Of a DNA stretch of 12,726 bases, positions 5,806-10,334 are shown in pieces. Position numbers and translations under genes: made by a program. Source of the stretch: a bacterium. Its GTDB lineage: Bacteria > UBP15 > UBA6099 > DSWB01. The stretch is from NCBI GenBank assembly GCA_020061125.1, contig JAGUYV010000505.1:1-12726 (forward strand), in the 5' to 3' direction. The first letter of the stretch is position 1, and each line of letters starts with the position of its first letter. The notes under the pieces are model-generated. The model saw nothing but the letters and a program-made list of their open reading frames with translations. It was not told the origin of the DNA and did not search any database.

Positions 5806-7331
5806 GACTCGCCCTGGTTTTCAATCCCTTCAGCTATAAAATCCACGAAGAGAACCTTCGCGTGGTGCAGAAATATTTCGGCCTGTTTCCGCCGTTGAGC
5901 CTGGCGTGGGTGGCGGGCATCGCCGAGCGCGCCGGGCACACGGTCTGCCTGGTGGACGCGCGCACCCTGGGCCTGTCCCGTGAGCAGACCCTGGAAATTT
6001 TGCGCGAGTTCCGGCCCGACATGCTCGGCTTCATGATGACCACCTACATGTACCGGGAGACTCTGGGCTGGGCGGAATTCCTCAAAAAGCAGCTCAATGT
6101 TCCGGTGATAATCGGCGGGTACAACCTGCGGGTTTATCCCGCGCAGAGCGTGACCCCGGAGCCTGTGGATTTCGGCGTGCACCAGCAGGCCGTGCGCACT
6201 CTGCCCGAATTTCTCGAAGCCTTTGAACAGGGCGGGGGATATGCGGAGGTCGAGGGCCTCATCTACAAGCGGGACGGCCGGGTGATTGTGAACGAAGACC
6301 GGCGCGTGCCGGATTTCAACGATTTCCCGTTTCCGGCGCGGCATCTGTTGCCCAACGAGCTGTACGCGGAATTTCCCACCGAGCGCAAGAATTTCACGGT
6401 CATGGTCACGAGCCTGGGGTGTCCGAAGCAGTGCAATTTCTGCGAGGCCGGGGGCACGCCCTACGCGCCGCGGCGGCCCGAGCTGGTGCTTGCGGAAATC
6501 GAGGAATGCGTCACCCGGCACGGCATCCGCGAGATTGACATTTTCGATTATGAATTCCCCATCGTGAACAAACGCGCGCGGGAGATCTGCGAGGGGCTTA
6601 TCGCGCGCAACCTGGATGTCACCTGGGCGTGCCGCGCGCGCATAGACAGCGTGGACCGGGACATGCTCGAACTCATGCATCGCGCCGGTTGCCGCCGCAT
6701 TTATTACGGCATCGAGTCCGGCAACCAGCAGATTCTCGACACCCTCAACAAGGGCATTACCCTTGACCAGATCCGCGCCACAGTGCGCGCCACGCATGAC
6801 GCGGGCATACAGGCGCTCGGCTTTTTCCTCATCGGGTCCCCCGGAGAAACCCGCGCCACAGTGGACCAGACCCTTCGCTTCGCGCGCGAACTGGATCTGG
6901 AATATGTGCAGTTCTCAAAGCTCACGGCCAAGCCGTTGAGCAAGTACTGGCGTGATCTGGTGGACAGCACGGGCTACGACTACTGGGCCGAGTACATTCT
7001 CGGGCGCACGCACGAACAGGCCCTGCCCCGGCCCTGGGTGGATCTCACGAACGAGCAGATAGACGCCCTGGCTCTGTATGCCTACAAAAAGCATCACGGG
7101 GATTTGCGCTTCCTGCTCAAGCACAGCCTGCGGGTGCGCACCTGGCCGGAGTTCAAGCGCAAATTCAACGCGTTCATTGATATGTTTTTCAGGCAGGAAG
7201 CCGTGGCCGAACATTGGATTCAGCGCGGCGAACAGTTTTCCATATTCAACGAGAACCCCAGGGCGCTGCTCAACCGCATGAGCACGCGCGCCGCGGACCT
7301 TGCGGCATCAAATAAGAAGTCCGGGGAATAG
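5802..7331 (+). CDS. B12-binding-domain radical SAM protein
   Basis: A 509-residue enzyme with an N-terminal cobalamin-binding-like Rossmann domain (about 1-140) and a radical SAM barrel (about 195-380). The cluster motif CPKQCNFC (C207, C211, C214) binds the [4Fe-4S] that cleaves S-adenosylmethionine. IYYGIESGNQQILDTLNKG (300-318) and GFFLIGSPGET (340-350) are typical later barrel motifs. PPLSLAWVAGIAERAGH (30-46) is the standard opening of the B12-binding domain. The stretch that usually reads GEGE after the Rossmann sheet is VHQQAV here (126-131). Such proteins do radical methylations, ring formations or rearrangements on lipids, cofactors or natural products; the substrate is unknown. The ATG overlaps a short upstream frame. 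It is divergent from the glycosyltransferase gene, hinting at a lipid or sugar target, and convergent with the next gene. Confidence 0.88.
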   Translation: MRLALVFNPFSYKIHEENLRVVQKYFGLFPPLSLAWVAGIAERAGHTVCLVDARTLGLSREQTLEILREFRPDMLGFMMTTYMYRETLGWAEFLKKQLNVPVIIGGYNLRVYPAQSVTPEPVDFGVHQQAVRTLPEFLEAFEQGGGYAEVEGLIYKRDGRVIVNEDRRVPDFNDFPFPARHLLPNELYAEFPTERKNFTVMVTSLGCPKQCNFCEAGGTPYAPRRPELVLAEIEECVTRHGIREIDIFDYEFPIVNKRAREICEGLIARNLDVTWACRARIDSVDRDMLELMHRAGCRRIYYGIESGNQQILDTLNKGITLDQIRATVRATHDAGIQALGFFLIGSPGETRATVDQTLRFARELDLEYVQFSKLTAKPLSKYWRDLVDSTGYDYWAEYILGRTHEQALPRPWVDLTNEQIDALALYAYKKHHGDLRFLLKHSLRVRTWPEFKRKFNAFIDMFFRQEAVAEHWIQRGEQFSIFNENPRALLNRMSTRAADLAASNKKSGE

Positions 7332-8031: not shown

Positions 8032-8667
8032 TTATTTGATCGCCTCGCCCATGTACAGGCAGGCCAGGATTTTCGCGTTTTCATCGCCCTGACACTGCAC
8101 GCGGTGGGGCACCGTGGAATCGAAGTAGATGCTGTCGCCGGGTTCGAGCACATCGGTGTGCTCGCCGAGCTGCACTTCCATGCGGCCCTCGAGCACGAAG
8201 ATGAACTCCTCGCCCTCGTGGCTGTAGGCGTGGCGGTCTTTTTTGGTGGCCGGCTCCAGGGTCACCAGGAACGGCTCCATGTGGCGGCCCTTTTTGTCGA
8301 ACGCCAGGGACTCGTAGCTGTAGCCGTACTTCACGCCCTGCTTGGACGCCACGCGGCTCATGGCCTTGCGCTCGTCGTGGCGCACGATGGTGTACGGCAC
8401 ATCGTGCATCTCCTGGAAGAATGCGCCGATTTCCACCTCGAGGGCGCGGGCGATCTTGATGAGCGTGCCCAGGGGCGGGCTGACCATGTGGTTTTCAAGC
8501 TGCGAGAGCAGGGCCGAGGAGAACCCGCATTTCGCGGCCAGATCCTGCAGGCTCATGCCCTTTTGCTCACGAATCTGCTTTATCTTTTCGGCAACCTTGA
8601 CGGAATCGTCGTCCTCGGGCAGGTCTTCCTCTTCTTCGGGGAAAAATTCTTCGGTGCTGCGTTTCAT
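8032..8667 (-). CDS. XRE-family regulator with C-terminal cupin sensor domain
   Basis: A 211-residue DNA-binding regulator. A helix-turn-helix of the XRE/Cro type spans about 24-82 (KIKQIREQKGMSLQDLAAKC, then SSALLSQLENHMVSPPLGTL), and a cupin sensor barrel spans about 130-205. The cupin keeps SHEGEEFIFVLEG (149-161, with H150 and E154) and PGDSIYFDSTVPH (176-188, H188); the first His of the usual HxH pair is Tyr148. Residues 6-21 form an unusual acidic extension with 11 Asp/Glu. AGGAGG lies 9 bases before the ATG at 8667, which is chosen over an upstream in-frame ATG at 8739 for that reason. It is followed by a terminator, has its own promoter and lies downstream of the 2-oxoacid oxidoreductase genes. 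It plausibly senses a metabolite of that pathway, but the target and ligand are inference. Confidence 0.9.
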   Translation of the reverse strand: MKRSTEEFFPEEEEDLPEDDDSVKVAEKIKQIREQKGMSLQDLAAKCGFSSALLSQLENHMVSPPLGTLIKIARALEVEIGAFFQEMHDVPYTIVRHDERKAMSRVASKQGVKYGYSYESLAFDKKGRHMEPFLVTLEPATKKDRHAYSHEGEEFIFVLEGRMEVQLGEHTDVLEPGDSIYFDSTVPHRVQCQGDENAKILACLYMGEAIK

Positions 8668-8772: not shown

Positions 8773-9324
8773 TTATTTTCTGTTTTCCCGCGCGAACTTG
8801 CGGCCCTGCTCGATGGCTTCGAGGTTGATGGGCACGAGTTTGGCTTTTTTGCCGGAGAAGGTTTTTTCGAGCGCGGCCTTGAGGCCGGGTGTGTCCGTGA
8901 CGCCCGTCATTTCCACATAAGCGCCCAGGGCCACCATGCTGGCGGTGCGCTTGTCGCCCACCTGTTCGGCGATGTCGTTGGTGGGCACCAGCAGCCTGGA
9001 GACATCGGAGCGCGTGAAATCGGACTCCTGGATGAAGGTGCCGTTGGCTACAAGCGCGCCGCCGGGCGAGACCCAGGACTCATATTTGTCGAGCGAAGGT
9101 TTGTTCATGACCAGGCAGCCGCTGGGCGCGCCGGTGATCGGGGAGCCGATGCGCTCGTCCGAGATCACCACGGTGCAGCGCGCGGTGCCGCCGCGCATTT
9201 CCACGCCGTAGCTGGGCATCCAGGTCACATTGCGTCCGTCGTGCATGGCAGCCAGGGACAGGATGTCCCCGATCATCAGAATGCCCTGCCCGCCGAATCC
9301 CGCCATGATGCAGTCGTGGTACAT
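8773..9324 (-). CDS. korC: 2-oxoacid:ferredoxin oxidoreductase, gamma subunit
   Basis: A 183-residue gamma subunit of a CoA-acylating 2-oxoacid ferredoxin oxidoreductase, which helps form the CoA-binding part of the complex. The family signatures are GFGGQG (9-14), MPSYGVEMRGGTARC (36-50) and a C-terminal helix after LVPINLEAIEQG. The length is normal for a separate gamma chain. The ribosome-binding region upstream of the ATG at 9324 consists of heptamer repeats; the best Shine-Dalgarno candidate, GGGAG, lies inside them about 10 bases before the start. Unlike its partner genes, it is separated from the beta gene by 236 non-coding bases. A 6-base inverted repeat (8746-8751 with 8767-8772) follows the stop but has only a weak T run, so readthrough toward the regulator gene is possible. 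The family is secure; the substrate is inferred from the alpha subunit. Confidence 0.92.
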   Translation of the reverse strand: MYHDCIMAGFGGQGILMIGDILSLAAMHDGRNVTWMPSYGVEMRGGTARCTVVISDERIGSPITGAPSGCLVMNKPSLDKYESWVSPGGALVANGTFIQESDFTRSDVSRLLVPTNDIAEQVGDKRTASMVALGAYVEMTGVTDTPGLKAALEKTFSGKKAKLVPINLEAIEQGRKFARENRK

Positions 9325-9329
9325 GATTG

Positions 9330-9357
9330 CCGTCTCCCGTCTTCCGTCTCCCGTCTT
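9330..9357 (-). repeat. Tandem heptamer array, four copies, at the korC ribosome-binding region
   Basis: On the plus strand this is four units of CCGTCTY: CCGTCTC, CCGTCTT, CCGTCTC, CCGTCTT. On the korC transcript it reads (RAGACGG)4 and ends 5 bases before the korC ATG, so the only plausible ribosome-binding site lies inside it. Gain or loss of a unit would alter that region. Confidence 0.9.
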
Positions 9358-9530
9358 CCGGGTAAAGCTAAGCGCCGTGTTCCGGGTTAAATCGTGATAC
9401 CGTCGCTCGCATGGACCTTTGTGCCGATGCCGCCGGACCCGCAGGCGCCGGTTTGTGATTTTTTTTATCCTGTCGTACCTTTTGTTCCTTGCTTTCTTGT
9501 TTTTCGTTTGCCGTTATGTTTTTGCCTTTT
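9358..9530 (-). other. Non-coding spacer inside the oxidoreductase operon
   Basis: This stretch of about 170 bases lies between the two heptamer arrays. The korB-proximal half (about 9447-9530) is strongly biased: on the transcript it is A- and purine-rich with an 8-A run (9466-9459) and very few U. The korC-proximal half has ordinary composition. I see no convincing gene, promoter or terminator here. Confidence 0.6.
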
Positions 9531-9558
9531 CCTGCACCCTGCACCCTGCACCCTGCAC
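9531..9558 (-). repeat. Tandem heptamer array, four copies, just after the korB stop
   Basis: Four identical units of CCTGCAC on the plus strand, reading (GTGCAGG)4 on the transcript. It begins 2 bases after the korB stop codon. Its unit differs in sequence from the array at 9330-9357 but has the same 7-base period, copy number and total length. Confidence 0.95.
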
Positions 9559-9560
9559 CC

Positions 9561-10334
9561 TCACAAATAATCCGCGGTGCTGCGCTCCTTGAAAATGCCG
9601 AGCGGGAAATACGGGACCATTTCTTCCTGGAGTTTTTTCTGCGAGGTGAGAGCGTCGAGCCGCCAGTTGGTGGGGCAGGCGCTCAAAATTTCCACGAACG
9701 AAAAGCCCATGTTGTCAATCTGCATCTTGAAGGCTTTTCTGATGGCCTGGCGGGCCTTGACGATGTGCGCGGGCGTATCGCACGCCACGCGGGCCACGAA
9801 GGACGGCCCCTCGAGGGTGGCGAGCATCTCGGCCATGCGGATGGGATAGCCGTCGCCCTCGTGGCTGCGGCCGTAGGGGCTGGTGGTGGTCTTCTGTCCC
9901 AGCAAAGTGGTGGGCGCCATCTGCCCGCCGGTCATGCCGTACAGCGAGTTGTTCACGAATATGACCGTGAAGTTCTCGCCCCGGTTGGCGGCGTGCACGG
10001 TTTCGGCCATGCCGATGGCGGCCAGATCGCCGTCGCCCTGGTAGGTGAACACGATTTTGTCCTTGTGAACGCGCTTGACGCCGGTTGCCTCGGCGCATGC
10101 GCGGCCGTGCGGGGCCTCGAGCACATCAATGTTGAGGTAGTTGTACAGGAACACGCAGCAGCCCACACCGGCCACACCGATGGTTTTTCCGGCCACGCCG
10201 TATTCGTCCAGGGTTTCGGCCACGAGCTTGTGCACATTGCCGTGGTTGCAGCCCGGGCAGAAGTGGAAGTTGGTGTCAATGAGCGTTTCGGGGCGCTGGA
10301 AGACCGCGTCCATTTTTTCCGCTGGTTTCGCCAT
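9561..10334 (-). CDS. korB: 2-oxoacid:ferredoxin oxidoreductase, beta (thiamine diphosphate) subunit
   Basis: A 257-residue catalytic beta subunit that binds thiamine diphosphate and, with alpha, decarboxylates the 2-oxoacid. Motifs are FCPGCNHGNVHKL (25-37), with Cys26 and Cys29, and the ThDP/Mg signature running from QGDGDLAAIG (99-108) to VNNSLYGMTGGQ (127-138). The ATG at 10334 is preferred to an in-frame TTG at 10385: an AAGG sequence precedes it, and the extra 17 residues would be a Pro/Arg-rich tail starting right against the vorB stop. It lies 51 bases downstream of the alpha gene in the same operon. The stop is followed after 2 bases by a heptamer array. The family is secure; 2-oxoglutarate, 2-oxoisovalerate and other 2-oxoacids are all possible substrates. 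Confidence 0.93.
   Translation of the reverse strand: MAKPAEKMDAVFQRPETLIDTNFHFCPGCNHGNVHKLVAETLDEYGVAGKTIGVAGVGCCVFLYNYLNIDVLEAPHGRACAEATGVKRVHKDKIVFTYQGDGDLAAIGMAETVHAANRGENFTVIFVNNSLYGMTGGQMAPTTLLGQKTTTSPYGRSHEGDGYPIRMAEMLATLEGPSFVARVACDTPAHIVKARQAIRKAFKMQIDNMGFSFVEILSACPTNWRLDALTSQKKLQEEMVPYFPLGIFKERSTADYL

Follow-up and report, generated by a model that had tools for sequence, protein, structure and literature searches.

Two heptamer arrays in a korB-korC spacer and their possible kinship with array-framed PF05635 elements

Arrays of heptanucleotides are known from cyanobacteria, xanthomonads and giant sulfur bacteria, and to our knowledge there is no agreed explanation of their origin. 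The stretch of 12,726 nucleotides analysed here (the window) contains two such arrays with different units, both between korB and korC. This raises the question of how the arrays came to lie there, and of whether they matter to the translation of korC.

The korB-korC spacer and its arrays

The genes of the operon run in the order korD-korA-korB-korC on the minus strand. As korC and korB occupy positions 8773-9324 and 9561-10334 of that strand, the two arrays bracket the spacer between them (Table 1). Array A starts at the korB TGA, and array B terminates 5 nt short of the korC ATG. Tandem Repeats Finder assigned both a period of 7 and 4.4 copies. The CCTGCAC array is perfect, while the CCGTCTY array is perfect when taken as a 14-mer in 2.2 copies. 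On the sense strand, the units read GGGTGCA in array A and GG(A/G)AGAC in array B. A period-7 run scoring at least 12 occurred in 3 of 400 Markov-2 simulated windows, with a best simulated score of 14, compared to 12 and 24 for the observed arrays. Five CC dinucleotides at 7-base spacing matched only the two arrays in the window, and two or more matches were found in 4 of 200 shuffles. The preliminary description had noted two four-copy, period-7 arrays on either side of the spacer, and this observation stands.

Table 1. Features of the korB-korC region, in window positions
Feature	Position	Strand	Remarks
korB, 2-oxoacid:ferredoxin oxidoreductase TPP-binding beta subunit	9561..10334	-	Pfam PF02775; TGA stop at 9561-9563 abuts array A
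Array A, (GGGTGCA)4 + GG on the coding strand, directly after the korB stop	9531..9561	-	
A-rich tract AAAAGGCAAAAACATAACGGCAAACG...	9478..9530	-	Comparison with other spacers; degenerate, a judgement call
Spacer middle	9361..9477	-	Single-copy in the genome at the sensitivity used
Array B, GGAAGAC-GGGAGAC-GGAAGAC-GGGAGAC-GG on the coding strand	9330..9360	-	
GGGAG, predicted korC Shine-Dalgarno, within the final array B unit	9334..9338	-	Anti-Shine-Dalgarno duplex energy -7.4
korC, gamma subunit, POR domain	8773..9324	-	Pfam PF01558; same start residue in orthologues

The korB-korC gap measures 236 nt in the window, compared to 15-30 nt in six same-order orthologues with a native Shine-Dalgarno sequence. 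Among 93 loci where korB adjoins korC, the gap is typically a few bases. The approximately 200 nt gained comprise both arrays and the middle of the spacer, and the most likely cause of this expansion is an insertion. The spacer had no match in Rfam. It folded no better than shuffled sequences (z +1.25) and contained no hairpin or stable fold. A search of the spacer for a PF05635 remnant found none, and a promoter scan of the spacer found no promoter, with terminator-like sites located on the opposite strand. No DNA resembling the spacer was detected on the plasmids searched, nor were other copies of its middle found in the genome at the sensitivity used. The gene immediately downstream of korC (positions 8032-8667, same strand) encodes a regulator with helix-turn-helix and cupin domains.

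As had been proposed from the sequence, one array holds the ribosome-binding region of korC. The Shine-Dalgarno sequence predicted in the last unit of array B has a duplex energy of -7.4, similar in predicted strength to those of the orthologues (-7.4 to -8.6). The accompanying proposal, that slippage in unit number tunes or switches korC translation in the manner of a contingency locus, did not hold up, and we consider it very improbable. Tandem arrays can slip, and array B does overlap the Shine-Dalgarno sequence, but 7-base additions on its upstream side leave both the last unit and the distance to the ATG unchanged. Because the arrays lie outside the ORFs, slippage crosses no reading frame and cannot shift one. 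Moreover, KorC is no surface antigen but a metabolic enzyme, and identical blocks of non-identical units at unrelated loci, described below, also argue against this proposal.

Array families A and B in the genome

Both window units recur at several other sites in the genome, while the reversed patterns had zero matches. The units belong to two dispersed array families. Family A (GSGNGYA) includes the variants GGGTGCA, GCGTGTA, GCGAGTA and GCGCGTA, which may be mixed within single arrays, and family B has the unit GGRAGMC. For the census of these families we used about 0.65 Mb of unselected contigs and the contigs with matches, plus genome-wide pattern searches of what is one fragmented metagenome bin (513 contigs, 79% complete). 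Arrays of both families were found at many loci. The dispersal of both units bears out the earlier suggestion that a genome-wide process yields 7-base arrays. The exact unit patterns had zero matches in six other genomes of the order, and about 330 kb sampled from three relatives in the order contained no period-7 array. We therefore rejected heptamers as an order-wide trait.

We give almost no weight to the arrays being an assembly artefact of the metagenome bin. Its fragmentation and incompleteness could favour such errors, and one 13-copy array stops at a contig end. However, the window arrays span 31 bp, which is below ordinary read length, and the same modules occur in the same layout on many contigs whose flanking genes differ. 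The 13-copy array has the unit GGGAGAC (L084, G000:C175, positions 6062-6160). As it reaches the contig end, long arrays may be points at which this assembly breaks.

The sequences that adjoin the arrays also recur. GGGAAA-(GGCAAA)n is common after A arrays, with GAAA immediately after the array in 17 of 30 cases, and B arrays usually have TTTGCC- or CTTTACC-like sequence in front of them. The window contains degenerate forms of both the A-side and the B-side junctions. In our judgement, the A-rich tract next to array A is probably a degenerate (GGCAAA)n tract as found after A arrays elsewhere in the genome. Many array-bearing spacers hold further inverted modules such as ACCACRGAGRNCACRGAGG, which had 22 exact matches in the genome while its control had none. 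This second dispersed module often forms an inverted pair (e.g., C8:3722-3740 and C46:4752-4770). At L305, in another genome, a PF05635 gene is flanked by GGCACAGA, an 8-mer array similar to this module.

Several arrays with mixed units are identical between loci. The block GCGAGTA-GCGTGTA-GCGAGTA-GCGCGTA is found at the unrelated loci L051 and L243, and the block GGGTGCA-GCGGGTA-GGGTGCA-GGGTGCA at the unrelated loci L079 and L216. The identity of such heterogeneous four-unit blocks suggests that the arrays may have been copied as blocks rather than by local slippage. This bears on an alternative without any mobile element, in which each array grew independently by slippage from a local seed. 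The seed would be the native Shine-Dalgarno sequence for array B and G-rich post-stop sequence for array A, with heptamers favoured by the polymerase footprint or by G-quadruplex formation. The Shine-Dalgarno sequences of relatives (GGGGAGA, AGGAGA) indeed resemble the B unit, and four copies of GGGTGCA fit the G3N4 quadruplex pattern. Four is also the commonest number of units among A arrays of at least three units (13/19), as it is in the heptamers of Xanthomonas and Nostoc (PMC4692102). Local growth is nevertheless hard to reconcile with identical units at many loci that are missing from relatives, with the identical heterogeneous blocks, and with the gain of about 200 nt of non-array sequence. 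The quadruplex route requires G3 runs, which most A variants (GCGNGTA) and every B unit lack. We regard independent slippage as unlikely.

Both families show a bias in their placement relative to genes, as predicted with a home-made gene finder. Eleven of 23 A arrays lie at most 60 nt after a sense stop (null expectation 4.0; reached in 0 of 2000 randomisations), and none of the 23 lies before a start. Conversely, six of 12 B arrays lie at most 60 nt before a sense start (null expectation 2.3, p = 0.016) and none lies after a stop. About half of the A arrays have no neighbouring sense stop, and several arrays are antisense. The layout with A on the left and B on the right, as between korB and korC, is found in at least three other spacers (C78, C8 and C157).

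The clustering of B arrays ahead of start codons might be consistent with a regulatory role at korC, for example through CsrA, as several GGA motifs overlap the Shine-Dalgarno sequence. CsrA is encoded in this genome, and a similar role was proposed for the TAACTGA repeats of Beggiatoaceae (PMC4679880). However, all seven genomes of the order encode CsrA while the arrays are found in only one, and both the A arrays after stops and the antisense arrays are at odds with such a role. We therefore find regulation improbable as the explanation for the arrays, although it may be a secondary function.

Arrays around PF05635 genes

The S23/IVP four-helix-bundle protein is encoded by a common gene, best known from rRNA intervening sequences, and we know of no established role for it. 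Two genes of this type (PF05635, 23S rRNA IVP/S23-type four-helix-bundle) are present in the genome studied here, on contigs C13 and C488. The gene on C13 lies between inverted four-unit A-type arrays. The gene on C488 has a degenerate CCGGMNY array on one side and, in inverted orientation, B-type units (GGAAGMC) on the other. The B units in the window are as those at C488, and the A units are kin to those at C13, the variants being linked by mixed arrays. The GGGTGCA variant was not found beside any PF05635 gene, while its relatives GCGTGTA and GCGAGTA were. The preliminary description had called the two window units unrelated. This is not simply so, as the two are alike in being rich in G on the coding strand, and for each there is a matching array type around one of the PF05635 genes of this genome. 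Arrays of GTAGCGN were identified in 6 of 386 genomes, and the five besides this genome are all from outside the order. In two of those, the arrays form inverted pairs around a small PF05635 gene.

We compared 44 PF05635 loci with 81 control korC loci. An array of 7-9 bp units was found within 350 bp on at least one side of 36/44 PF05635 loci and 3/81 control loci, where 36/44 is not an unbiased proportion because the set combines best-scoring matches with loci from genomes picked for having arrays. Arrays on both sides were found at 23/44 and 0/81 loci, respectively, and matching inverted flanks (complementarity of at least 16) at 36/44 and 5/81. Among the 28 usable PF05635 loci that had not been picked for arrays, 21 had an array and 21 had inverted flanks. 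In windows displaced by 700 bp, arrays were found on one side in 10/39 cases and on both sides in 0/39, and inverted flanks in 2/39. When flanks were paired across different PF05635 loci, complementarity was found in 2-4 of 44. The flanking units differ from copy to copy, even inside one genome. For example, genome G359 contains eight PF05635 loci (L292-L304) with mostly different units, among them 7-mers, one 8-mer and one mixed 7/9-mer.

Our preferred explanation, to which we assign a probability of about two in three, is that A and B are the left-end and right-end modules of a dispersed non-coding intergenic element, which was inserted between korB and korC after this lineage had diverged from its relatives and is related to the array-framed PF05635 elements. 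We read the korB-korC spacer as a relative of those elements that has no gene and is partly decayed. What links this gene-less spacer to them is the common units, junctions and placement. The element would insert between a stop codon and the start codon that follows it, with the arrays as its end modules. The korB-korC copy would have lost, or never had, the PF05635 gene. The absence of the gene and the divergence of the middle would make it a non-autonomous or composite derivative. Since the insertion starts directly at the stop codon of korB, and its purine-rich terminal units supply the predicted korC Shine-Dalgarno sequence, it would be tolerated and probably does little harm. We infer that the elements are mobile. 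The obvious candidate for the copying agent would be either the PF05635 protein or hairpin RNA that surrounds its gene, and one of these may drive the element.

Several observations argue against reading the spacer as such an element. Arrays A and B of the window are G-rich on one strand, whereas the arrays that flank PF05635 genes are inverted copies. The lack of a PF05635 remnant, of a hairpin and of other copies of the middle also counts against this reading, as do the absence of GGGTGCA beside PF05635 genes and the half of the A arrays that have no sense stop nearby. The spacer shares its array units with the proposed class of array-framed PF05635 elements, but it has no inverted arrays around a gene. 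As the gene is absent and A and B lie on the same strand, we call the korB-korC copy a relative rather than a full member of this class.

Known repeats and elements

The array-framed PF05635 loci resemble the intervening sequences of 23S rRNA with an S23 protein. These consist of a PF05635-family gene between terminal inverted repeats, as in Coxiella, and are sporadic and proposed to be selfish (PMC4990558). The loci described here likewise have a PF05635-family gene between inverted ends and a sporadic distribution, and complementary ends are present at most of them (inverted flanks at 36 of the 44 loci, a set partly picked for arrays). However, intervening sequences lie within 23S rRNA helices, while these loci lie between protein genes and end in tandem 7-9 bp arrays. 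The korB-korC copy is not in 23S rRNA and has neither an S23/PF05635 ORF nor complementary long-stem ends. MITEs are also short, dispersed, non-coding and intergenic, but the A and B ends in the window are not inverted copies and there is no link to a transposase.

Rehm et al. (2015) described G-rich heptamers in Xanthomonas and Nostoc (GGGNATC and GGGGA(C/T)T) that are dispersed and intergenic, with four units being the commonest. They lie near the stops and starts of aligned genes and often form inverted pairs (PMC4692102). The arrays in our genome are likewise tandem, dispersed and mostly intergenic, but their units are GSGNGYA and GGRAGMC rather than GGGNATC or GGGGAYT, and they are associated both with PF05635 genes and with a composite spacer element. 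Judged by unit sequence, only the GGGTGCA array has G3 quadruplex tracts, while GCGNGTA and GGRAGMC lack regular G3 runs. On these grounds, we rejected the G-quadruplex as a property common to the arrays. The TAACTGA direct repeats of Beggiatoaceae occur in few copies just upstream of start codons (MacGregor 2015, PMC4679880). This placement is similar to that of the few-copy arrays directly before start codons described here, but the Beggiatoaceae repeats have one fixed A/T-rich unit, and neither a partner array after stops nor a PF05635 link was reported. The terms S23 and four-helix are missing from PMC4692102 and PMC4679880. We found no link between heptamers and PF05635 in the literature that we searched, which took in few subscription journals and no bioRxiv preprints, and an earlier report may exist. 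Because the korB-korC copy fails the defining features of intervening sequences and fits the quadruplex heptamers only in part, we place it among the heptamer-array elements, as a variant.

The short tandemly repeated repetitive (STRR) heptanucleotides are dispersed arrays of heterocystous cyanobacteria. In being dispersed heptanucleotide arrays they resemble those studied here, and on plasmids of Nostoc, Trichormus and Calothrix, heptamer arrays flank PF05635 genes. On named cyanobacterial plasmids, a frequent layout is stop codon, array, PF05635 gene, inverted array and start codon. This leads to a broader proposal, which we put forward tentatively and at somewhat less than even odds. Bacterial heptamer arrays in general, including STRR, GGGNATC and the arrays described here, may be the ends or relics of one widespread and hitherto unrecognised class of mobile element. 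The only gene of this element would encode the S23/IVP four-helix-bundle protein. It would insert exactly between the stop and start of neighbouring genes, and both ends of a copy would consist of a 7-9 bp unit particular to that copy.

The association between arrays and PF05635 genes (36/44 loci, partly picked for arrays, compared to 3/81, with matching inverted units) joins two puzzles, the origin of heptamers and the role of S23/IVP. It makes the origin of heptamers testable by asking whether the PF05635 protein, or the surrounding hairpin RNA, copies arrays into intergenic gaps. An array-framed, selfish-looking small gene in many bacteria may thus explain the source of 7-letter repeats. 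On the named cyanobacterial plasmids, array-framed PF05635 loci also occur within CRISPR, conjugation and ribonucleotide-reductase gene sets. At L334, L344 and L336, on such plasmids, PF05635 genes with 7-8 bp arrays were found within functional gene sets, namely cas6 / cas4, cas10 / cmr3 and ribonucleotide-reductase genes.
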